64,000 nt of DNA from Phytohabitans rumicis (GTDB lineage: Bacteria > Actinomycetota > Actinomycetes > Mycobacteriales > Micromonosporaceae). Position 1 is the first letter of the stretch. Each line of letters starts with the position of its first letter. Positions 5,852-63,137 of this stretch are shown piece after piece. Under the pieces are notes generated by a model, which saw nothing but the letters and a program-made list of their open reading frames with translations, had not been told where the DNA came from and ran no database searches. The DNA lies in contig NZ_BLPG01000001.1 in the NCBI RefSeq assembly GCF_011764445.1, forward strand, positions 3,100,001 to 3,164,000. Reading direction: 5' to 3'. The translations under genes and the position numbers were made by a program.

Positions 5852-7748
5852 GGGGTTCCTCTCAGATCCACAGCACACCGGAAACCAACGTTGCTGGAAC
5901 GGGTGAGCCCGGCGCCGGCGACCAGCAGCTTCACCGACACCTCTGGCGGCTGCGGGCCGCCGTCGAAATACCAGTCCGAGCCCTCGGCCCGGAAGCCGGC
6001 GCCGCCCTTGACGATCACGAACCGGGTACGCCCGTCCGTGTGCTCGCTCTCGGTCAGCTCCCACACCGGCGGCTCGCTCCGGAGTAGCAAGCCCGCCTCG
6101 GCGGCCACCTGCCACTCGTCCTCGGTCGGCAGCCGCGCCCCCGCCCATGCCGCGTACGCCCGCGCGTCGGCCAGGTCCACATGGGTCACCGGGCGGTCCG
6201 CGGGCCCCCGCCCGGCCTCGAACCGCTCCACCCTGGTTGGGCGGTAGCCGGTGGCCGCCAGGAAGTCGGCGTACTCGCCGTGGGTCACCTCGCGCGCCGC
6301 GATCGCGAACGCACCCAGGTGGACCGTCCGGTGCAGGGTCCCGGTGCTGTGCAGGCGGGGCGGCAGCGGCTTCCACTCGTCCACATAGGGCGCCTCGCCG
6401 TACAGGCCGGTCTCCCGGATCCGATAGCGCACCACGAGATCCCGCCGCCCGCCGTCGACGGCCCGCATCCCTTCGGGCACACTGTCCCGCTCCGCTCGCG
6501 CCACGGCGATCCGCACCGCCGCCCGCGCGGGGAAGGACCCGTCCGCGGAGGGCGGTTCGGGCCCGATGGCTGCTCGGGCCGGCGTGACCGCCGCGATGCC
6601 GCCCGCGGGGAGCGGGCCGCCGGCCCCGCCCTCCTTCGGCGTCAGGGGCAGCCGGTGATCAGGTCGACCAGGTCTTCGCGCTCCGTTGCCAGCCAAGGGC
6701 CGTCGACGTCGCCGCCCTGGTTGACCACGGTCCACAGTGGCACGCCGTCGTGCACCCAGCGCGAGGCGTACACCTGGCCGCCGGCGTGGTCCGCGAGCGG
6801 TGTCCAGTCCTCGGACCGCAACCACGCGGCGTGGCTGGTCTGGACCCGGCGCATCGCGCGCAGCAGCGCGCGGTCCCGCTCGCTCCAGCCCACCCAGACC
6901 CCGAAGACGCTTTCCCACACGAGGACGCCCGCGCCGTTGAGCCAGGCCGAGTGCAGCTCGTCCAGATGGCTGCGGTGCCAGCGGCGGGTGTGGTGCAGCA
7001 TGTGCCGGCGCTCGAACCATTTGGCCCGCAGTACGCCGGGCACCGCCGAGTCGGCGAACCACTGCGCCCAGGACATCGCGTGGTCCTCGATCCGGGCCAG
7101 CGGCACCCGCGACTCGCCTTCGAGCACCACGTGCGGCGGCAGGGCGGCCCGGAGCTTGCCGGCGCCCTCCTTCAGGGTGTCCAGGAACACGCCGTCCGCC
7201 CCGAGCCACGACACGATGCCCGCCACGGCCGCCTCGTCGGTGACCGGCTCGCGCCGGGTGCCGGTGTCCCACGGGTTGTAGTCGACGAAGACCCGTACGC
7301 CCCGGGCTTGGATGGCGCGCACCACGTCGGGCAGTTCCGGGACGTCCCGGTAGAAGTCGAACTGGTTGCGATCGTCCAGCCCGATCACCGGGTACGCGTG
7401 CCAGAGCACCACGCCGTCGAAGCCGCCGAAGTCGCGCTCCGCCGCGTCCAGGAAGGCGTCCACTGTGAACTCGCCGCGCTCGTGGTCGTAGAGCGTCTCG
7501 TCCCAGAGCCAGGCCAGGCAGACGCTGAAGCAGTCGCCCGGTACCTCGTCGTAGTGCCGGCCCTCGTAGTCGAGGCGCTGGCGCGCACCGGACCGCCAGG
7601 CGGTGAGCCGATCCCGCCAGTCCGGCCACCGCGCGGGGTCGTCCGGAGCGGCAAAGATCTTCGCCTCGTCCAGGGTGGACAGGTCCGCGTCCTCATCCAG
7701 CGGCACGTGTGTTGGCAGGTCGATCAGGCGCGGCACGTACGGATTCAC
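5848..7748 (-). CDS. Glycosidase-like domain fused to formylglycine-generating-enzyme-like domain (apparent frameshift)
   Basis: The N-terminal part starts at GTG 7748 ([17 protein letters not shown]) and gives 368 residues. It looks like a TIM-barrel sugar-active domain ([54 protein letters not shown]) ending in the stop at 6642. The next frame continues [16 protein letters not shown] into an FGE-sulfatase/SUMF1 domain ([46 protein letters not shown]). One added base in the G4 run at 6645-6648 (C on the coding strand) fuses them into about 633 residues, and no good independent start precedes the second part. The FGE core lacks an obvious catalytic Cys pair, so it is more likely a non-haem-iron or binding module than a sulfatase activator. 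The GTGA start overlaps the ribokinase stop. Confidence 0.65.
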
Positions 7749-8638
7749 GCCGACACACCCAGTAAATGGTCGATCTCCGCACGCACAGGGAGCGAACTGG
7801 ACGCGCCAAACTTCGTGGCGCACGCCGCGCCGGCGGCGCAGGCCCACCGGATGGCGTCCTCCACCGGCCGCCCCTCCGCCCAGGCGACGGCGAGCGCCCC
7901 GGTGAACGCGTCCCCGGCGGCCGTGGTGTCGACCGCCAGCACCCGTGGTGCCGCGACGTCGAGCCGTTGGCGGTCCCGGTCGGCGTACGCCGCGCCCCGG
8001 GCGCCGAGCGTCATCACCACCCGGGGCACCAGGTCCAGCAGGTCCCCGGGCTCAGCGGGCCGGCCCGCCAGCACCTCGGCCTCACCCTCGTTGACGACCA
8101 GCACGTCCACCATGGCCAGCAGCTCGGCCGGCAGCGTCCGGGCCGGCGCCGCGTTGAGCACGACCACCGTCCCGGCGTCCCGTGCCGTGGCGACCGCCTG
8201 GGCCACCGTGTCCACGGGTATCTCCAGCTGGCACAGGAGCACGTCGGCGCCCGCGATCGCCTCGCGGTCCGGTGTGGACAGCTCGGTCAGCGCGGCGTTG
8301 GCCCCCGGGGCGACGACGATGAGGTTCTCCGCCTGCTCGTCCACGGCGATCAACGCCACGCCGGAGGGGCCCGGCACCGTGCGCAGCAGGCTCACGTCCA
8401 CCCCGGCCGAGGCCAGGTTGTCGCGCTGCGGCTGGGCGAAGGCGTCGTGCCCGACCGCCCCGACGAAGGCCACCCGCCCACCCGCGCGGGCCGCGGCGAC
8501 GGCCTGGTTGGCGCCCTTGCCGCCCGGCACCGTCGTGAACGCCTCGCCGAGCACCGTTTCCCCGGCACGCGGCAGGGTTGGCGCGGTCACCACCAGGTCC
8601 AGGTTCGCGCTGCCGACAACGACGACCTTCGCGGTCAT
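7745..8638 (-). CDS. rbsK: Ribokinase-like PfkB-family sugar kinase, copy 1
   Basis: The 297-residue protein has the full ribokinase signature: VVGSANLDLVVTAP at the N-terminus, VPGGKGANQAVAAARAGG (PfkB signature 1) near residue 40, LNAAPAR, VVNEGEAEVL, and VDTTAAGDAFTGALAVAWAEG (signature 2 with catalytic Asp) near residue 245. It should phosphorylate ribose, or a related pentose or deoxysugar, at the 5-hydroxyl. It sits between an ADP-ribosylglycohydrolase-family gene and the glycosidase-like fusion, and overlaps both by 4 bases. This suggests that the upstream hydrolases release a free pentose. A paralogue lies at 16228-17115. Confidence 0.9.
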   Translation of the reverse strand: MTAKVVVVGSANLDLVVTAPTLPRAGETVLGEAFTTVPGGKGANQAVAAARAGGRVAFVGAVGHDAFAQPQRDNLASAGVDVSLLRTVPGPSGVALIAVDEQAENLIVVAPGANAALTELSTPDREAIAGADVLLCQLEIPVDTVAQAVATARDAGTVVVLNAAPARTLPAELLAMVDVLVVNEGEAEVLAGRPAEPGDLLDLVPRVVMTLGARGAAYADRDRQRLDVAAPRVLAVDTTAAGDAFTGALAVAWAEGRPVEDAIRWACAAGAACATKFGASSSLPVRAEIDHLLGVSA

Positions 8639-9927
8639 GAGGACACCTCCCGGGTACGCGTGGCCAGCTCCTCGAACGTGACGCCGTCGAAGCCGCCGAT
8701 GCTGCTGGTGAGGCGCCCCTTGAGCGGCCCGGTCCACTCCGGCCGGATGCCTGAGCCGCCGGTCAGCGCGCCCAGGACGGAGCCGACCGTGGCGCCGTTG
8801 GAGTCGGTGTCCCAGCCGCCGCTGACCACCGCGCAGATCCCACGGTCGAAGTCGCCACCGCTGTACGCGAGCGCGGCCGCCACGAGCGCCGCGTTGTTGC
8901 GTACGTGCACCCAGTGCAGGTGCCCGTGCCGCTTCTCGACCGCGTCGACGATGGACTCCCAGTCCCCTCGCAGGGATCGCGCCTCCCGTACCGCCCTGGC
9001 GAACGGCCCGTCCGGCAGCACCGACTCGCCGGCGTCCAGCACCTCGTCCACGGTGGACGCCACGACGGCGGCGGACGTCATCGCGGCCACCCACATCGCC
9101 CCGCTGACGCCGTCGCCGACGTGGCTGACCACCGCGTCCCGGTACGCCAGGGAGGCGGCCAGGTCCGGCCGGCCGGGTGACGTCCAGCCGTACACGTCGG
9201 CGCGGATCTGCGCCCCGATCCACTCCCGGAACGGGTTGTGGTGCCGCGCGGTCTCCGGCGGCACCAGCCCAAGTAGCAGGTTCCGGTACGCCACCCGCTC
9301 GGCCGTGAAGACCCGGCCGGCCGGCAGCCAGTCCAGCCACGCCTGGGCCACGTCCGCGCTGGTGAAGTCGCGCCCGTGCGCCTGGAGGATCCGCAGCGCC
9401 AGGAGGGCGAAGTTCAGGTCGTCGTCCTCGGGCGTGCCGTCGATGTTCTCGGCGAGGCTGGTCTTCGCGCTGCGCTTGTTCCACGGCCACCGGGCGGCGA
9501 CGTCTTCCGGTAGGCCGGTTGCCGTGAAGTACGCCTTCAGCGGCCACCGGCCTGTTGCCTCCAGGATTTCGCGGATGCCGCGCCGCGGGATCTTCTCCAC
9601 CGGCTTGCCGAGTACGCAGCCCACGGCGCGCCCCAGCCACGCCCCCAGCGCCCGCTCCGAGTGCAAGGAAGGGCCCCCTGTTATCGCTTTTTGCATAGGA
9701 GGGGGCCCTTCCTTGCACTCGGGCGCGGGGAGCGCGTCGAGCAGTTCCAGCGCTAGGGCGCGGAGCGCGGGGTCACCCGGGACGGAGGCGCCGCTGGTCG
9801 GGGCGGTGAGCGGGCCACCAGCGGCCGCCCACCGGGCCTCCACGGCGGACACGTCGCGGCCCTCGTCCCGGCTCGCCATCAGCTCGTACGGCAGCAGTTC
9901 CTCGGGCGTGGTCCAGGTGAGCCTCAC
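8635..9927 (-). CDS. ADP-ribosylglycohydrolase-family protein, copy 2, carrying an in-frame hairpin insert
   Basis: The protein has 430 residues from GTG at 9927, which overlaps the stop of the previous gene (GTGA). About 65 N-terminal residues precede the catalytic domain, which runs from ALGAWLGRAVGCVLGKPVEK. The metal-binding acidic motifs are GTPEDDDLNFALL near residue 165 and GGWDTDSNGATVG near 375. The first is EDDD rather than the usual TDDT. Residues ECKEGPPPMQKAITGGPSLHSE are encoded entirely by a palindromic repeat (9657-9722) also found between genes at 45457-45512. The family removes ADP-ribose or hydrolyses related N-/O-ribosides. With a ribokinase next door, a role in ribosyl-compound catabolism is more likely than protein de-ADP-ribosylation. 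Confidence 0.85.
   Translation of the reverse strand: MRLTWTTPEELLPYELMASRDEGRDVSAVEARWAAAGGPLTAPTSGASVPGDPALRALALELLDALPAPECKEGPPPMQKAITGGPSLHSERALGAWLGRAVGCVLGKPVEKIPRRGIREILEATGRWPLKAYFTATGLPEDVAARWPWNKRSAKTSLAENIDGTPEDDDLNFALLALRILQAHGRDFTSADVAQAWLDWLPAGRVFTAERVAYRNLLLGLVPPETARHHNPFREWIGAQIRADVYGWTSPGRPDLAASLAYRDAVVSHVGDGVSGAMWVAAMTSAAVVASTVDEVLDAGESVLPDGPFARAVREARSLRGDWESIVDAVEKRHGHLHWVHVRNNAALVAAALAYSGGDFDRGICAVVSGGWDTDSNGATVGSVLGALTGGSGIRPEWTGPLKGRLTSSIGGFDGVTFEELATRTREVSS
9657..9722. repeat. GCAAGGAAGGGCCC hairpin element, copy inside a coding sequence
   Basis: The two arms at 9657-9679 and 9700-9722 are exact inverted repeats of 23 bases (CCGAGTGCAAGGAAGGGCCC on the left). They flank a 20-base centre containing GTTATCGCTTTTTGCAT. 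The unit is 66 bases, so it keeps the reading frame and adds 22 codons to the ADP-ribosylglycohydrolase-family gene. The centre is identical to that of the intergenic copy at 45457-45512. The stems differ but each pairs perfectly, which points to maintained secondary structure. Confidence 0.9.
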
Positions 9928-11078
9928 TGCGCCTCCCGACGTGAGAGCCCCTTGAAGCGCTCCACGCGCCGGGCGTACCGGGCGGCGTCGGCGGCGAACA
10001 CCTCCGACGCGACGGCGGCCAGCACGCGGGCCGGCTCGGCGAGGTCCAGCCGGGACGCCTCGGCCACCACAGTGGACCATTCGGCGGGTACCGCCGGGGC
10101 GCCCCCGAGCGCACCGGCGATCGCACCCGCCATGGTGGCGGTCGAGTCGGAGTCCCGACCGTAGTTGACCGCCCCCAGCACCGCCTCCCGGTATCCCCCG
10201 TTCGCGACGACCAGCATTCCCAGCGCGACCGGCAGCTCCTCGATGGAGTGCAGCCGGCTCGGTCGCCGCGCCCCCAACCCCGGGGTGCGGTAGTCCTCCC
10301 CCACCGTGTCGTACGGCGCCACCGCCGCGCGCAGTGGCGCGATGGCGGCGCGCGTGTCCGCGTACCCGCGTGCGGCCTGGACCACGGCGGCGATGGCCGC
10401 GCCGGTCCCGTCGCGGGCCAGCTCCAGCGCCGCGTCCACCACGTCGTCGACGCCCGCGCCCGGCGCCATCGCCGCGGCGACCGCGGCGGCGAACACCGCG
10501 GCCGCCTCGCGGCCATAGCTGTGCTGGTGCGCCCCACCGATCTCGATGGCTTCCGCGTACGCCCCGGCCGGGTCGCCGGCGTTGACGATGCCGACCGGCG
10601 CCATGTACATCGCCGCACCGCAGTTGACGATGTTTCCCACGCCCGCCTCACGCGGGTCGGCGTGCGCGTGGTGCAGCCGGGTTACCAGCCAGCGTTCGGC
10701 GGCCGCGAGGCGGTGGAAGGCCACCGCCTCGCGCTCCAGGTCCGGGATGTAGACCTCCCGCTCGATCAGGTCGGGCACGAGCAGCTCGACGACGTCGTAC
10801 GCGTCGAGGTGGTCGCGCTTCTTCGCGTAGGCCCGGACCAGGGCGTGGGTCATCAACGTGTCGTCGGTGATGTGCCCATCGCCCTTGTGGTACGGCGCGA
10901 GCGGCCGGCTCGTGGCCCAGTTCTCGTGGAACGGGGGCACGATGCCTTCCACCCAGCCGCCGTAGCGGGTCCGGATCTCCTCGGGTAGCGCCGTCTCGGT
11001 GGCACCGCCGAGGGCATCGCCCACTGCGGCGCCGACGAGGCAGCCGACCGACTTGTCGAGCAGAAGACTCCCATGCAT
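9924..11078 (-). CDS. ADP-ribosylglycohydrolase-family protein, copy 1
   Basis: The 384-residue protein starts MHGSLLLDKSVGCLVGAAVGDALGG, the canonical start of this family. It keeps both metal-site motifs: GHITDDTLMTHALV near residue 68, and YGRDSDSTATMAGAIAGAL near 310. The segment NIVNCGAAMYMAPVGIVNAG is also typical. The fold hydrolyses ADP-ribosyl or ribosyl bonds with a binuclear Mg centre. ATG at 11078 begins 2 bases after the stop of the sugar-binding lipoprotein, so translation is probably coupled. It is followed by a more divergent paralogue, and the two may act on different linkages of the same imported substrate (inference). Confidence 0.88.
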   Translation of the reverse strand: MHGSLLLDKSVGCLVGAAVGDALGGATETALPEEIRTRYGGWVEGIVPPFHENWATSRPLAPYHKGDGHITDDTLMTHALVRAYAKKRDHLDAYDVVELLVPDLIEREVYIPDLEREAVAFHRLAAAERWLVTRLHHAHADPREAGVGNIVNCGAAMYMAPVGIVNAGDPAGAYAEAIEIGGAHQHSYGREAAAVFAAAVAAAMAPGAGVDDVVDAALELARDGTGAAIAAVVQAARGYADTRAAIAPLRAAVAPYDTVGEDYRTPGLGARRPSRLHSIEELPVALGMLVVANGGYREAVLGAVNYGRDSDSTATMAGAIAGALGGAPAVPAEWSTVVAEASRLDLAEPARVLAAVASEVFAADAARYARRVERFKGLSRREAQ

Positions 11079-17972: not shown

Positions 17973-18959
17973 ATGACGGCGGTCATCGAGATCGAGGGAC
18001 TGCGCAAGACGTTCCGGACCATCCGGCGGGGCGCGCGCGTGGCACTCGACGGCTTCGACATGACGGTCGAGGCCGGGCAGATACACGGATTCCTCGGGCC
18101 GAACGGCTCCGGCAAGACGACCACGCTCCGCACGCTGCTCGGCTTGGTCCGGGCGGACGCGGGGCGGATGGCCATCCTCGGCCAGCCCGCCCCGGCGGCG
18201 CTCCCCGTGGTCACGCGGCGGCTCGGGGCGATCGTGGAGAGCCCGCAGTTCTTCGGCAACTTCACCGGCCGCCGTACCCTCCAACTGCTGGCCCGGGCCG
18301 GCGGCGTCCCGCTGGATCGGGTCGAGCACGTGCTCGCCCAGGTCGGCCTGCGCGACCGCGGCGAGGAACGGGTCAAGGCGTACTCGCTCGGCATGAAACA
18401 GCGCCTGGCCGTGGCGTCCGCGCTGCTCAAGGACCCGGAGCTGCTGATACTCGACGAGCCGGCGAACGGCCTGGACCCGGCCGGCATCCGGGAGATGCGC
18501 GACCTCATGCGGGAGTTGGCCGCGGCGGGCGTGACGGTGCTGGTCTCCAGCCACATCCTGGCCGAGATCCAGCTGATCTGCGACCACGTGACGATCATTT
18601 CGCGGGGCAAACGGGTGACGTCCGGGCCGGTCGCCGCGGTCCTGTCCGGCTTCGACCGGGGCGAGTTCCGGGTACGCGTGGCCGACCTCGACCACGCCGC
18701 CGAGGTGATCCGCACGGCGGGGCTGGAGGTGACGGTGCACGAGGACCACCTCGTGGTCGCCGACGTGGGCGACCCGGCCTGGCTCACCGAGCAGCTCGGG
18801 CAGCGGGGCATGTGGGTCTCCGAGCTGACCCCGCTGACGCCCGACCTGGAGAGCGTCTTCCTCCAGCTCACCGACGGGGACACGCCGCGTCAGGTCGACG
18901 TCGTCGGCCCGCCGCGAAACGCCGACGACGTCGCCATCGAACTGGGAGGACAGCCGTGA
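17973..18959 (+). CDS. ABC-2 type exporter ATP-binding protein
   Basis: The 328-residue protein is a CcmA/DrrA-type ATPase with FLGPNGSGKTTTLRTLLGL (Walker A, near residue 43), YSLGMKQRLAVASALL (signature), LLILDEPANGLDPAG (Walker B) and VSSHILAEIQ (H-loop). The C-terminal 100 residues form the accessory domain of ABC-2 exporters. ATG at 17973 was chosen over longer readings because TAVIEIEGLRKTF is the family start. It is divergent from the ATPase at 17112-17905, with 67 bases between them. Its stop overlaps the start of the membrane partner (GTGA). Confidence 0.92.
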   Translation: MTAVIEIEGLRKTFRTIRRGARVALDGFDMTVEAGQIHGFLGPNGSGKTTTLRTLLGLVRADAGRMAILGQPAPAALPVVTRRLGAIVESPQFFGNFTGRRTLQLLARAGGVPLDRVEHVLAQVGLRDRGEERVKAYSLGMKQRLAVASALLKDPELLILDEPANGLDPAGIREMRDLMRELAAAGVTVLVSSHILAEIQLICDHVTIISRGKRVTSGPVAAVLSGFDRGEFRVRVADLDHAAEVIRTAGLEVTVHEDHLVVADVGDPAWLTEQLGQRGMWVSELTPLTPDLESVFLQLTDGDTPRQVDVVGPPRNADDVAIELGGQP

Positions 18960-23951: not shown

Positions 23952-24391
23952 TCGGCTCTCCCAGCGTGGACCCCACGGGGCACGGGGCTCGTGGGGTCCA
24001 CGCCCTCACCGTTCTGTACGACGCGCACTGTCCACTGTGCCGCGCGGCGCACCGCTGGCTGGCCGCGCGCGACCAACTCGTACCCCTGGAGTTTGTGCCG
24101 GCCGGGTCGGACGAGGCCCGGCGGCGCCTCCCCGGCCTGGACCACGGCGCGACGCTGCGTGATGTGACCGTCGTGGCCGACACTGGCGAGGTGTACGTCG
24201 GCGACGGCGCCTGGCTGGCCTGCCTGTGGGCCCTGGCCGGCTACCGCGAGCTGGCCGAACGCCTGGCACGGCCGCACCTGCTGCCGGTGGCCCGGCGGGT
24301 CATCGCCGCGGCGGCCGCGGTGCGGGAGCGGACCCGCGGCTACGGTGACGATGATGACCGAGCAGACTGCGCCGACGACCGCTGCGGGTGA
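23948..24391 (+). CDS. DCC-family thiol-disulfide oxidoreductase-like protein (DUF393)
   Basis: The 147-residue protein contains the family hallmark VLYDAHCPLCRAAHRWL (the DxxCPxC motif) at about residues 22-38. A thioredoxin-like region follows, with RDVTVVADTGEVYVGDGAWLACLWAL. The family is thought to act in disulfide chemistry, though substrates are rarely known. The last 47 bases overlap the TetR gene in another frame and encode an acidic tail (GDDDDRADCADD), so the true C-terminus may be shorter. Confidence 0.8.
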   Translation: MIGSPSVDPTGHGARGVHALTVLYDAHCPLCRAAHRWLAARDQLVPLEFVPAGSDEARRRLPGLDHGATLRDVTVVADTGEVYVGDGAWLACLWALAGYRELAERLARPHLLPVARRVIAAAAAVRERTRGYGDDDDRADCADDRCG

Positions 24392-36231: not shown

Positions 36232-36291
36232 CGATCTAGGAAGAATCGTGGGTATAAATCGGACTCGATACCCACGATTCTTCCTAGATCG
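36232..36291. terminator. Perfect 23-base palindrome, likely bidirectional terminator
   Basis: CGATCTAGGAAGAATCGTGG... pairs without mismatch over 23 bases around a 14-base loop. It lies between two convergent genes, which suits a shared terminator. It could equally be a dispersed palindromic element. Confidence 0.5.
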
Positions 36292-44589: not shown

Positions 44590-45447
44590 TCAGATCACTG
44601 GGGCTGTGGGGGTGCCGCCAACGACCAGGGTCACTGAACCGTCCACGTGGTCGACGGTGAAGAGGGTGCCGGGCGGGAACGCGCCCAGCACCTCGGGCGG
44701 CAGTTGCACCGTGCCGTCGCCGGCCACCACGGCGAAGTCCTGGCCGTCCCGCCCCTCGGCGCCCACCCGGCCGTCGCGGATCGTCACCGCGCGGCCCAGC
44801 CGGGCGCCGACCTCCGCGTCGTGGGTGACCACCACGATCGTGGTGCCGCGCTCCGCGTTCACCGTCTCCAGCGCGGCGAGCACCTCGTCGCGGCCGTGCG
44901 TGTCGAGCTGGCTGGTGGGCTCGTCGACGAGCAGCAGCCCCGGCGAGGCCGCGATGCCGACCGCGAGCGCCGCCCGCTGGCGGGCGCCCGGCGGCAGGTC
45001 GTCGATCCGGGCGCTGGCCTTGCCACGCAGCCCGACCAGGTCGAGGATCCGCTCCGGATCGTCCAGCTCGATGCCGGCGGTGCTGGCCGCGCGGCGCTGG
45101 GCCAGCCAGACGTTGCGGTGCAGCGTGGCGTACGGCAGCAGGTTGCGCGCGGCCCCCTGCAACACCACGCCGATCTCGGTGCCGCGCAGCCGGGAGATCT
45201 CGGCGTCGGTCAGCTTGCCCAGGTCGTACGTGCCGACGCTGACCCGGCCGGCGGACGGGCGCATGAGCCCGCCGAGCAGCGCCACCAGTGTCGACTTGCC
45301 GGAGCCGGACGGGCCCACCAGCGCCAGCATCTCGCCGGGGTTGATGGAAAGGTCGACTCCGGACAGCGCCACCACGTCGCCCGCCTCGGCCCGGTAGATG
45401 TGCACCACCCGCCGGCACGCCACCGCCAGTCCACTCACGGGCTTCAT
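44590..45447 (-). CDS. LolD/MacB-like ABC ATPase with a degenerate signature motif
   Basis: The 285-residue ATPase starts at ATG 45447 (MKPVSGLAVACRRVVHIY). Walker A is GPSGSGKSTLVALLG and Walker B LLLVDEPTSQLDTHG, both intact. The ABC signature is DLPPGARQRAALAVG instead of LSGGQ, and the Q-loop reads VVLQGAARNLLPYATLHRN. The final 60 residues after the H-loop (VVTHDAEVGARLG) are extra. Longer upstream frames are rejected because they only read through the hairpin repeat at 45457-45512. It should drive the two FtsX permeases. Confidence 0.88.
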   Translation of the reverse strand: MKPVSGLAVACRRVVHIYRAEAGDVVALSGVDLSINPGEMLALVGPSGSGKSTLVALLGGLMRPSAGRVSVGTYDLGKLTDAEISRLRGTEIGVVLQGAARNLLPYATLHRNVWLAQRRAASTAGIELDDPERILDLVGLRGKASARIDDLPPGARQRAALAVGIAASPGLLLVDEPTSQLDTHGRDEVLAALETVNAERGTTIVVVTHDAEVGARLGRAVTIRDGRVGAEGRDGQDFAVVAGDGTVQLPPEVLGAFPPGTLFTVDHVDGSVTLVVGGTPTAPVI

Positions 45448-45456
45448 TAAACCCCA

Positions 45457-45512
45457 TGCAAGGAAGGGCCCCTTGTTATCGCTTTTTGCATAACAAGGGG
45501 CCCTTCCTTGCA
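45457..45512. repeat. GCAAGGAAGGGCCC hairpin element, intergenic copy
   Basis: TGCAAGGAAGGGCCCCTTGT... at 45457-45479 pairs perfectly over 23 bases with 45490-45512 around the loop CGCTTTTTGC. It fills the gap between the mutase stop and the ATPase start. The loop matches the copy inside the coding sequence at 9657-9722. It may terminate mutase transcription or attenuate the ABC operon. Confidence 0.9.
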
Positions 45513-45516
45513 AGAT

Positions 45517-47190
45517 CTAGAAGCGGGCGGGCTCTCGGTAGACGCCCCACTCGCGGCGCAGGGCGTCGCAGATCTCGCCGAGGGTCGCCTCGGCGCGGGC
45601 CGCGTCGAGCATCGCGGGGATCATGTTCTCCTCGGCTCGGGCCGCCGCCACCAGCCGGCCCAGCGCCGCGTCCACCCGGGACCGGTCCCGCGCGGCCCGC
45701 CGGGTGGCCAGCAGCCGGCGCTGCTCGACCTCCACCTCCTGCGAGACGCGCAGGATCTCCAGCGGCTTGCTGACCGTGCCGAGGTGCCGGGTCACGCCGA
45801 CGACGTGCTTCGACCCGTCCTCCAGCGCCAACTGGTACGCGAACGCCGCCTCCGCGATCTGCCCCGTGAACCAGCCGTCCTCGATGCCGCGCAGGATCCC
45901 CGACGTGACCGTGCCGTCGGAGCCCATCGCCGTGATCCGGGCGAAGATCTCCTCGGCCTCCGCCTCCAGCTTGTCGGTGAGCGCCTCGACGTACCAGGAG
46001 CCGCCCAGCGGGTCGGCCACGTTGGTCACGCCGGTCTCCTCCATCAGCACCTGCTGGGTACGCAGGGCGATCTCGGCCGACTCGTCGGTGGGCAGCGCGA
46101 GCGTCTCGTCGAGGGCGTTGGTGTGCAGCGAGTTCGTGCCGCCGAGCACGGCCGCGAGGGCCTCCACGGCGGTGCGTACGACGTTGTTGACCGGCTGCTG
46201 CGCGGTCAGCGACACCCCGGCCGTCTGGGTGTGGAAGCGCAGCCACAGCGCGCGCTCGTCGGTCGCCCCGTACACGTCGCGCAGCCAGCGGGCCCAGATC
46301 CGCCGCGCGGCGCGAAACTTGGCGATCTCCTCGAAGAAGTCCAGGTGCGCGTCGAAGAAGAACGACAGCCCCGGCGCGAACGCGTTGACGTCCAGCCCGC
46401 GGGAGAGCCCCAACTCGACGTACCCGAAGCCGTCGGCCAGGGTGTAGGCCAGCTCCTGCGCGGCGGTCGACCCGGCCTCCCGGATGTGGTAGCCGGACAC
46501 CGACAGCGGCTTGTAGCGGGGGATCTCGCGCGCGCAGTACTCCATCAGGTCGCCGATGAGGCGCAGGTGCGGCTCGGGGTCGAAGAGCCACTCCTTCTGC
46601 GCGATGTACTCCTTGAAGATGTCGGTCTGCAGCGTGCCGTCCAGTGTGGACACGTCGGCGCCCTGCCGCTCCGCGGCGACCAGGTACATGCAGAAGATCG
46701 GCACGGCCGGGCCGGAGATGGTCATGCTGGTGGTCGTGCCGGCGAGGTCGATGCCGTCGAAGAGGACGTCCATGTCGGCGGCCGAGTCGATGGCCACGCC
46801 GCAGTGCCCCACCTCGCCGAGCGCCTGCGGGTCGTCGGAGTCGCGCCCCATCAGCGTCGGCATGTCGAACGCCACCGACAGCCCGCCGCCGCCCGCGCCG
46901 AGGATCATCTTGTAGCGCTCGTTGGTCTGCCGGGCGTTGCCGAAGCCGGCGAACTGCCGGATCGTCCAGGTCCGCCCGCGATAGCCGGTCGGATAAAGCC
47001 CCCGGGTGTACGGGTACTCGCCCGGCCAGCCGACCCGCTCGAACCCGGGCACGTCGGCACCGGGCGGTGGACCGTAGACCGGTTCCACCGCCATCCCCGA
47101 AAGCGTCGTGAAGTCCGCGTCGCGCTTGCGCGCCGCGTCGTACCGGGCCTGCCAGCGAGCGCGGCCGGCCGCGATGCCGTCGGCGTCCAT
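45517..47190 (-). CDS. B12-dependent acyl-CoA mutase large subunit (methylmalonyl-/isobutyryl-CoA mutase family), no B12 domain
   Basis: The 557-residue protein is the substrate-binding TIM barrel of this family: [92 protein letters not shown], and the C-terminal [14 protein letters not shown]. It ends near [11 protein letters not shown] and lacks the C-terminal cobalamin domain (DxHxxG), so a separate small subunit is needed. The TIRQFAGF segment has Phe where methylmalonyl-CoA mutases commonly have Tyr, which may widen or change substrate choice. MeaB is encoded nearby. Confidence 0.9.
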
Positions 47191-48629: not shown

Positions 48630-48685
48630 CGTGATCAGGGCGTCCCTCACGTTGCTGGAGCAGCTTGAGGGACGCCTTGATCACG
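48630..48685. repeat. CGTGATCAGGGCGTCCCTCA inverted repeat at the meaB 3' end
   Basis: The 20-base arms at 48630-48649 and 48666-48685 match with one difference and enclose a 16-base loop. The right arm overlaps the meaB stop codon. It lies between two genes read in the same direction, so it could terminate or weaken readthrough into the ABC ATPase gene. Confidence 0.75.
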
Positions 48686-55876: not shown

Positions 55877-55910
55877 CGCAGGCCGTACCGGATCACCGGT
55901 ACGGCCTGCG
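55877..55910. terminator. Perfect GC-rich hairpin terminator
   Basis: CGCAGGCCGTACCGG (55877-55891) pairs exactly with 55896-55910 around an ATCA loop. It lies 62 bases after the DivIVA-like stop. It is a strong actinobacterial I-shaped terminator, so the two DivIVA-like genes are probably separate transcription units. Confidence 0.8.
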
Positions 55911-62866: not shown

Positions 62867-62970
62867 CGTCGATCAAGGGATTCCGCGTCGATCAAGGACA
62901 TATGGTCGTGCTTGGATCTCTTTTCCACGACCATATGCCCTTGATCGACGCGGAATCCCTTGATCGACGC
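62867..62970. repeat. GATCAAGG nested palindrome, copy 6
   Basis: Both arms hold two tandem CGTCGATCAAGG blocks separated by GATTCCG. The ATATGG/CCATAT core pairs perfectly around TGGATCTCTTTTC. It lies right after the terminator of the deacetylase-like gene. Confidence 0.9.
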
Positions 62971-63053: not shown

Positions 63054-63137
63054 CTCGATCAAGGAATCCGCCGTCGATCAAGGGCGAATGGTCGTGGTTT
63101 GGAGATCAAACCACGACCATTCGCCCTTGATCGACGC
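63054..63137. repeat. GATCAAGG nested palindrome, copy 7
   Basis: The left arm has two blocks and the right arm one. The core is GAATGG/CCATTC, a third variant that again pairs perfectly. It lies 56 bases beyond the stop of the beta-helix gene at the right edge. Between copies 6 and 7 (62971-63053) is GC-rich sequence without features. Confidence 0.9.

Follow-up and report, generated by a model that had tools for sequence, protein, structure and literature searches.

Short palindromes near gene ends are familiar from the REP/REPIN elements. Palindromes that are read in frame within protein genes are described as most frequent in Rickettsia (PMC10969869, PMC2229807). In those accounts R. conorii carries 44 Rickettsia palindromic elements (RPEs), nearly half of them within open reading frames (ORFs), and one RPE-bearing enzyme (gmk) is translated and active (PMC10969869, PMC2229807). 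In Streptomyces clavuligerus, 353 highly structured ends that lack a U-tract are likened, in the account available, to I-shaped terminators or to Rho-dependent ends (PMC8269248).

A window of 64,000 nucleotides from Phytohabitans rumicis (contig NZ_BLPG01000001.1, positions 3,100,001 to 3,164,000), which is the whole stretch of DNA analysed here, holds two copies of a palindrome, one between genes and one in frame within an enzyme gene. The family to which they belong is probably a dispersed palindrome of the Micromonosporaceae that is mainly terminator-like, lies after stop codons and is spreading, with a few copies surviving inside genes. Neither the hairpin family nor 12-14-nt pieces of it were found in the open-access literature on Micromonosporaceae palindromes, MITEs, repeats or terminators, among the matches listed.

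The hairpin unit and its usual place

The family unit is a 56-nt palindrome, present in the window at 9662-9717 and at 45457-45512; the copies that were read range from 54 to 56 nt and do not reach the 105-150 bp of RPEs. Exact arms, GCAAGGAAGGGCCC, are found at 9663-9676 (+) and 9703-9716 (-) in the first copy and at 45458-45471 (+) and 45498-45511 (-) in the second, while the remaining 9 of the 13 arm matches in the window carry three mismatches each and are at chance level. Both window units start with TGCAAGGAAGGGC and finish with CCTTGCA; elsewhere the ends are CCTAACA or similar. The stem at 9657-9722 reaches 23 pairs, as the five bases next to the unit on either side are also complementary, and the predicted RNA fold of this copy has an energy of -58.8 kcal/mol (z -12.2), with none of 200 shuffles as good. 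A search of the window with Rfam 15 at gathering score gave no matches.

The loop core is common to both window copies and the stems differ, yet each pairs. A first-pass annotation of this DNA had recognised the same palindrome and loop core at both places, which the exact arms bear out, and had held that structure is kept because both of the differing stems pair. The second point can be extended to the family, in which stem pairing has been kept through changes on both sides. Among 78 distinct copies, pairs are changed on both sides in 44 cells, against 26.2 in shuffled data (0 of 500 shuffles as high), although such counts are inflated by kinship among the copies. Six pairs have a both-side change against 5.3 in shuffled data, which is unremarkable, and pairing holds in 85.9% of cells.

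In the whole genome, the loop core is matched 115 times at up to two mismatches (57 and 58 by strand), and a reversed control pattern is not matched at all. This Phytohabitans-group genome (10.7 Mb) holds at least 110 copies; the 110 that were read comprise 100 of the 115 loop-core matches and 10 further places, and by construction all of them resemble the loop core (at most four mismatches). Symmetric copies, with TGCA-type ends in which all four outer pairs pair, make up 47 of the 110, and the other 63 are asymmetric. The symmetric forms are free of stop codons in frames 0 and 2 on both strands, with a stop in frame 1, and the asymmetric form tested is stop-free in frame 2 only.

The usual place of the element is directly after stop codons, in a terminator-like position, with 9 of the 110 copies inside ORFs. 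Of the 110 copies, 64 have a stop codon no more than 6 nt from their left end, against a background of 3.7-4.0% per 6 nt, 62 have one no more than 8 nt from their right end, and 38 have both. Convergent genes flank 54 copies, tandem genes 32 (19 + 13) and divergent genes two, while 13 overlap a called gene end and nine lie inside ORFs; these settings come from a home-made gene caller with codon usage trained on the window, and single calls may err. The mostly intergenic placement is set against a window of which 87% is called coding.

The copy at 45457-45512 (+) is one of those between tandem genes. It lies 4 nt downstream of the stop codon of the gene at 45517-47190 (-), presumably for a methylmalonyl-CoA mutase-like protein. 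On its other side, the gene at 44590-45447 (-), which we take to encode an ABC transporter ATPase-like protein, is called as starting 9 nt beyond the copy. The frame of this gene is open through the copy (45448-45513) to a TTG at 45513, with a QGRAPCY reading, and the element may extend the N-terminus of the protein through 45448-45513.

The copy in the ADP-ribosylglycohydrolase gene

The copy at 9662-9717 (+) lies in frame in a gene for an ADP-ribosylglycohydrolase-family protein (ADPRH) at 8635-9927 (-), which encodes 430 amino acids without an internal stop; the loop motif TTATCGCTTTTTGCAT is read on the plus strand and the gene on the minus strand. The start of the gene is overlapped by the end of an upstream gene at 9924-11078 (-), to which it may be translationally coupled, and its stop codon by the start of a downstream gene at 7745-8638 (-), presumably for a ribokinase-like protein. 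The extended stem at 9657-9722, which is the element with five complementary bases per side, codes for residues 70-91, ECKEGPPPMQKAITGGPSLHSE, and the match to PF03747 begins at residue 95. The first-pass annotation was therefore right to place a stop-free palindrome of 66 bases just before the catalytic domain. In an alignment of 30 sequences, E167-D170 and D373-D375 of the product are invariant or nearly so. The structure model has an overall pLDDT of 91.4, and the insert is modelled with neither helix nor strand between helices 53-65 and 90-110, with block pLDDT of 61 and 71.

The insert had been thought to add 22 residues, and this does not hold as a plain addition. The stretch from PAP/PVP to GAW has 25 residues here and 23 in each of three genomes of the same genus (G002, G003 and G005), where the 23-residue linker has another sequence and lacks the element. 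A close ADPRH orthologue is present in four of the five congeners; the best match in G001 is 33% identical. Judged by this gene, the closest named relatives are 'Micromonospora sp. CPCC 205371', Phytohabitans maris and P. suffuscus. The annotation had proposed a comparison of orthologues, in which the same residues in all of them would point to an ancient segment rather than an insertion. The orthologues do not all have these residues, and the insert is absent from three of the four in the genus, but the fourth, in G004, has a diverged hairpin of its own.

The G004 stretch is found letter for letter in 'Micromonospora sp. CPCC 205371'. Its linker hairpin is in the same frame (EGPP...GGPS) and has the same 46-nt span, GGAAGG to CCTTCC, as the copy here; a G-C pair of this genome is an A-T pair in the G004 hairpin, at two third positions that are synonymous. 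It scores 32.9 bits with the family model and 24.7 bits in the other orientation, so that it seems to be oriented opposite to the copy in this genome. A whole-genome model search of G004 gave one match, whose place was not given, with an E of 0.0066, which is larger than a hairpin of 32.9 bits would suggest. With the strict pattern GGAAGGRCCC-N10-30-GGGYCCTTCC, the ADPRH linker is the only fit in G004. Stems of more than 10 bp were found in only two of 73 orthologue linkers, one of which (L063) is the G004 sequence and the other L089; the survey covered named genomes and the best 80 of 178 ADPRH loci, three congeners among them, and the extraction pattern missed 7 of the 80 linkers. The L089 hairpin, from Bailinhaonella thermotolerans (about 1824-1864), is an unrelated one of 15 bp that is also in frame in the ADPRH linker.

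In trees built for ADPRH and for the L163 family, G004 falls outside the group of this genome (G000) and the other congeners (supports 0.993 and 0.986). Given the hairpin in G004 and its position in the trees, the ADPRH site does not look like one recent insertion. The evidence leans towards a linker hairpin that was ancestral, was lost in one clade and was converted here to the family sequence; that two related hairpins reached the same linker separately is less favoured. An explanation of the whole family can be built on this history, in which terminators that arose in place have been made alike by gene conversion and the genus ancestrally had a palindrome in the ADPRH linker, which was converted here and lost in three congeners. 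The homologous position in G004, the shared 46-nt span and frame, the compensated pair difference, the sole strict-pattern fit with its match to the model, and the outside position of G004 all speak for it. It also needs a loss in the other clade, and the higher-scoring G004 match runs opposite to the copy here (32.9 bits, with 24.7 the other way); together with the evidence from gene ends given below, this makes such an origin of the family rather unlikely. The best explanation of the copy at 9662-9717 is that it survives from a landing within the gene, and that the ADPRH linker is now largely what the hairpin encodes.

Copies in other genes

Seven of the nine copies inside ORFs have coding evidence on both sides. 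In the other two (L009 and L220) the coding signal is lost past the element, which gives them the look of altered C-termini. Besides ADPRH (L022), in-frame copies are found in genes for an APH-family phosphotransferase (L010), a carotenoid synthesis/glycosyltransferase protein (L016), a protein without a Pfam match that is a membrane protein by its sequence (L025), an ornithine cyclodeaminase-family protein (L159), a Gfo/Idh/MocA oxidoreductase (L163) and a P450-reductase protein (L197), which has a codon score of only 0.04 past the element but reductase domains that match Pfam. Frame 0 is used in two genes (CMQG/CKEG...SLH) and frame 2 in five (QGRAPSY type). At the level of DNA reading, the seven in-frame cases agree with the earlier suggestion that the palindrome would be able to become protein sequence.

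Chance reading through host genes that are decaying would also give copies in frame, given that symmetric copies have two of three frames open each way in any case, and the lost coding signal downstream in L009 and L220 and the low downstream codon score of L197 would fit with decay. For six of the seven genes, however, homologues or Pfam domains are found on both sides of the insert, in L197 by way of the reductase domains, and ADPRH keeps E167-D170 and D373-D375 and is modelled at the high pLDDT given above. Decay is therefore a very unlikely explanation.

The insert is absent from orthologues of L163, L159, L025, L016 and L010, and in part from those of ADPRH. The L163 protein is longer than eight of its nine orthologues by 11-12 residues and longer than that of G004 by about 7, and it has 19 element residues where the eight have 7-8. 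Gains are 11 residues in L159 against four of five orthologues and 13 against the fifth, 13 in L025 against the one orthologue that covers the site (L317, which does not cover it, was dropped), about 3 to 4 in L016 against four orthologues (L303, out of frame as extracted, was dropped), and about 6 in L010 against the nearest orthologue, which is 41% identical. Since the element amounts to 19 residues and the net gains are smaller, host codons have seemingly been lost at or near each site. In genes, then, the element seems to replace residues of a host loop rather than simply to add to them, as read from orthologues so diverged that the host's own earlier loop at each site is seen indirectly. 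In the L163 model, the insert falls within residues 197-218, which have a pLDDT under 50, contain short helical turns and lie between two strands. The models hint at a flexible loop at the ADPRH and L163 inserts, where confidence is low partly because the insert is without relatives.

The L197 copy differs in its setting. In L197:1532-3634 a P450 domain is joined to a ferredoxin-reductase module by the element. In G005, a P450 region of 45% identity stops a few residues past FTPGP, the point at which the L197 element begins, and the reductase relatives in congeners are separate ORFs with no P450 upstream in the stretch examined. No orthologue that spans the L197 joint was found.

Gene ends, spread and known systems

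In some relatives, the gene-end sites are empty or are filled by other hairpins. In the convergent L145 pair, presumably deoC/pgm-like, the stops are 61 nt apart here and 3, 6, 7, 47 and 118 nt apart in five relatives, and in the L177 pair they are 59 nt apart here and -4, 0, 0, 6 and 170 nt apart. For 16 further pairs in five genomes, 50 of the 80 gaps could be computed: nine are -4 to 10 nt, four are 18-20 nt, 18 are 36-130 nt, two are 225-246 nt, 14 exceed 400 nt and three are kilobase overlaps. The last represent broken synteny, and many of the sites are not clean empty sites; both genes of the L035 pair are on the same strand in all five relatives. In 20 junctions of relatives, chosen mostly for short gaps, other hairpins with 8-14-bp arms lie between the stops in nine and none in 11. 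One of these hairpins, at the L408 junction, shares the letters GAAGGGC and CCC with the element and is still another hairpin. The convergent ends of the L031 pair are 61 nt apart here and about 1.5-2.3 kb apart in four relatives, and by these coordinates an intervening stretch seems to have been lost at the element.

Other palindromes were also seen. One with 30-bp arms, beginning CGTCGATCAAGGGC, is present at 63072-63136 of the window and at L179:3711-3775, and it still pairs where the arm differs. A third kind, GATCAAGGCGTCCTTCAAGTCG, at L145:1199-1262 and L183:505-560, resembles a hairpin of G004 (L395). A hairpin like this third kind is carried by G004 at the convergent L186 site of the element, so that kinds of hairpin seem to swap at one site. 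In L208, L217 and L033 the element is directly adjoined by a second palindrome, which is partial and related in sequence. Further inverted repeats with 11-24-bp arms are found in the window at 10704-10733, 18896-18933, 23964-24003, 36232-36291, 48639-48676, 55877-55910 and 62899-62937.

With model R1, matches were found in 147 of 300 Micromonosporaceae genomes, G000 included, and in 20 of 44 genera, under stricter filters by which weak matches are lost. A laxer search of the five congeners gave one match in G004, one marginal match in G002 (E 0.097) and none in the other three. The loop is recognisably the same in 19 foreign copies (best matches), of which 14 are within 20 nt of a stop codon and five are not, by a caller trained on this window. 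This patchy distribution, with a conserved loop, suggests spread rather than origin in place. A loop core recognisable across genera would be needless for a terminator arising in place, and such an origin is also opposed by the 11 of 20 relative junctions with no hairpin between the stops. Phage and plasmid records gave no match to the element. Eleven viral contigs contain the 17-nt core; in ten of them only the core region matches the model, and in L416 the match is full-length, though weak (20.5 bits). A viral carrier is not claimed, as the best E of all was 0.0059 over 98,628 bases.

No T-rich run follows the hairpin in the flank table of the 110 copies, as would be expected of a classical terminator. 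A stable hairpin directly after stop codons, as in I-shaped terminators, is what is found. In the favoured account, the hairpin would mainly sit just past a stop codon, most commonly in the gap of a convergent gene pair, in which both strands could make use of it. Copies would spread within the genome and take gene-end sites that are empty or otherwise filled in relatives. A few would land in genes, and these would persist where they are in frame and the protein tolerates the loop. We infer mobility from dispersal together with empty sites and, from the sequences, also that the hairpins act as terminators, that the inserts are translated and that selection is the filter.

The first-pass annotation had called the palindrome mobile, and the dispersed copies and some empty sites agree with this; a Y1 transposase and a clear target duplication were not found. 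Mobilisation by a RAYT (Y1 tyrosine) transposase, as for REP/REPIN elements, would suit imperfect palindromes that are short, numerous and close to gene ends. There are, however, no matches to PF01797 in this genome (assembly completeness 96.02%), while the control search was positive in 5 of 14 genomes, and this route is most improbable. A MITE of the classical kind, mobilised in trans by a DDE transposase, with purifying selection against insertions in genes and promoters leaving copies after stop codons, would account for near-identical copies at many sites, a patchy presence in 20 of 44 genera, and a unit that is an inverted repeat as a whole; the right flank AGATC, present in 10 of the 110 copies, would also fit. 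Selection alone does not predict a stop codon 0-5 nt away, and orthologous loops are replaced rather than interrupted. Nor is there a clear target duplication: at the unit ends, three-base flanking direct repeats number 1 against 1.9 in shuffled data, and the only excesses are at shifted ends (15 against 7.1 for two bases, 4 against 1.6 for three). A MITE of this kind is thus unlikely.

In symmetric copies, pairing continues into the flanks; at offsets 1-3 it is seen in 27, 24 and 25 of 47 copies against 15.0, 14.8 and 14.0 shuffled, and asymmetric copies have no excess (14, 20 and 18 of 63 against 20.9, 24.0 and 21.1). In the 22 symmetric copies without stops on both sides, the pairing persists (13, 11 and 10 against 6.9, 6.5 and 6.1), to which symmetric stop codons may still contribute. 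Template switching, in which one arm serves as the template for the other, would be expected to produce such pairing, which supports, short of proof, quasi-palindrome correction. The L010 and L022 copies have eight bases in common beyond the element. Shared flanks, the loss of host residues and the lack of a clear target duplication favour insertion of a copy or repair type over cut-and-paste. It is possible, if still doubtful, that the hairpin is a mobile terminator with a double life, which spreads with its conserved loop by replacing what stands at gene ends, be it nothing, another hairpin or an intervening stretch, and moves by copy or repair. Because the symmetric form has two of three frames open on both strands, the same hairpin could replace protein loops or join ORFs, as in the L197 P450-reductase.

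Seven in-frame cases alongside more than 100 mostly gene-end copies in a GC-rich soil actinomycete allow the passage from regulatory hairpin to protein segment to be tested beyond Rickettsia. The sites in relatives suggest that hairpins between convergent genes may turn over by replacement with dispersed sequence. Such turnover bears on the evolution of gene ends and perhaps on some gene fusions.

Among known systems, the REP/REPIN elements with RAYT are set apart from this family by the absence of a PF01797 match in this genome. ERIC, Correia/NEMIS and other bacterial MITEs are also small non-autonomous repeats, some of which are described as fused in frame to ORFs (PMC2229807); target duplications are described for ERIC and Correia (PMC2229807), whereas no clear one is seen here. 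The SPRITE element is, by its description, likewise repeated and terminator-like (PMC10969869), and that description, as available, does not mention coding copies such as those found here (PMC10969869). The I-shaped terminators of GC-rich bacteria likewise have a strong GC-rich stem without a U-tract, but as described they are individual sequences (PMC8269248), in contrast to one family with a conserved loop repeated more than 100 times. The closest kind is that of the RPEs, which from the accounts available are dispersed palindromes both between genes and in frame in unrelated protein genes, a likeness of form and setting. This family too has many dispersed copies, in-frame copies in several unrelated genes and orthologues without the insert, in part for ADPRH. 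RPEs are described as 105-150 bp long, from Rickettsia and often in genes, whereas the element here is of 56 nt, belongs to the Micromonosporaceae and lies mostly by stop codons, ORFs holding 9 of the 110 copies.
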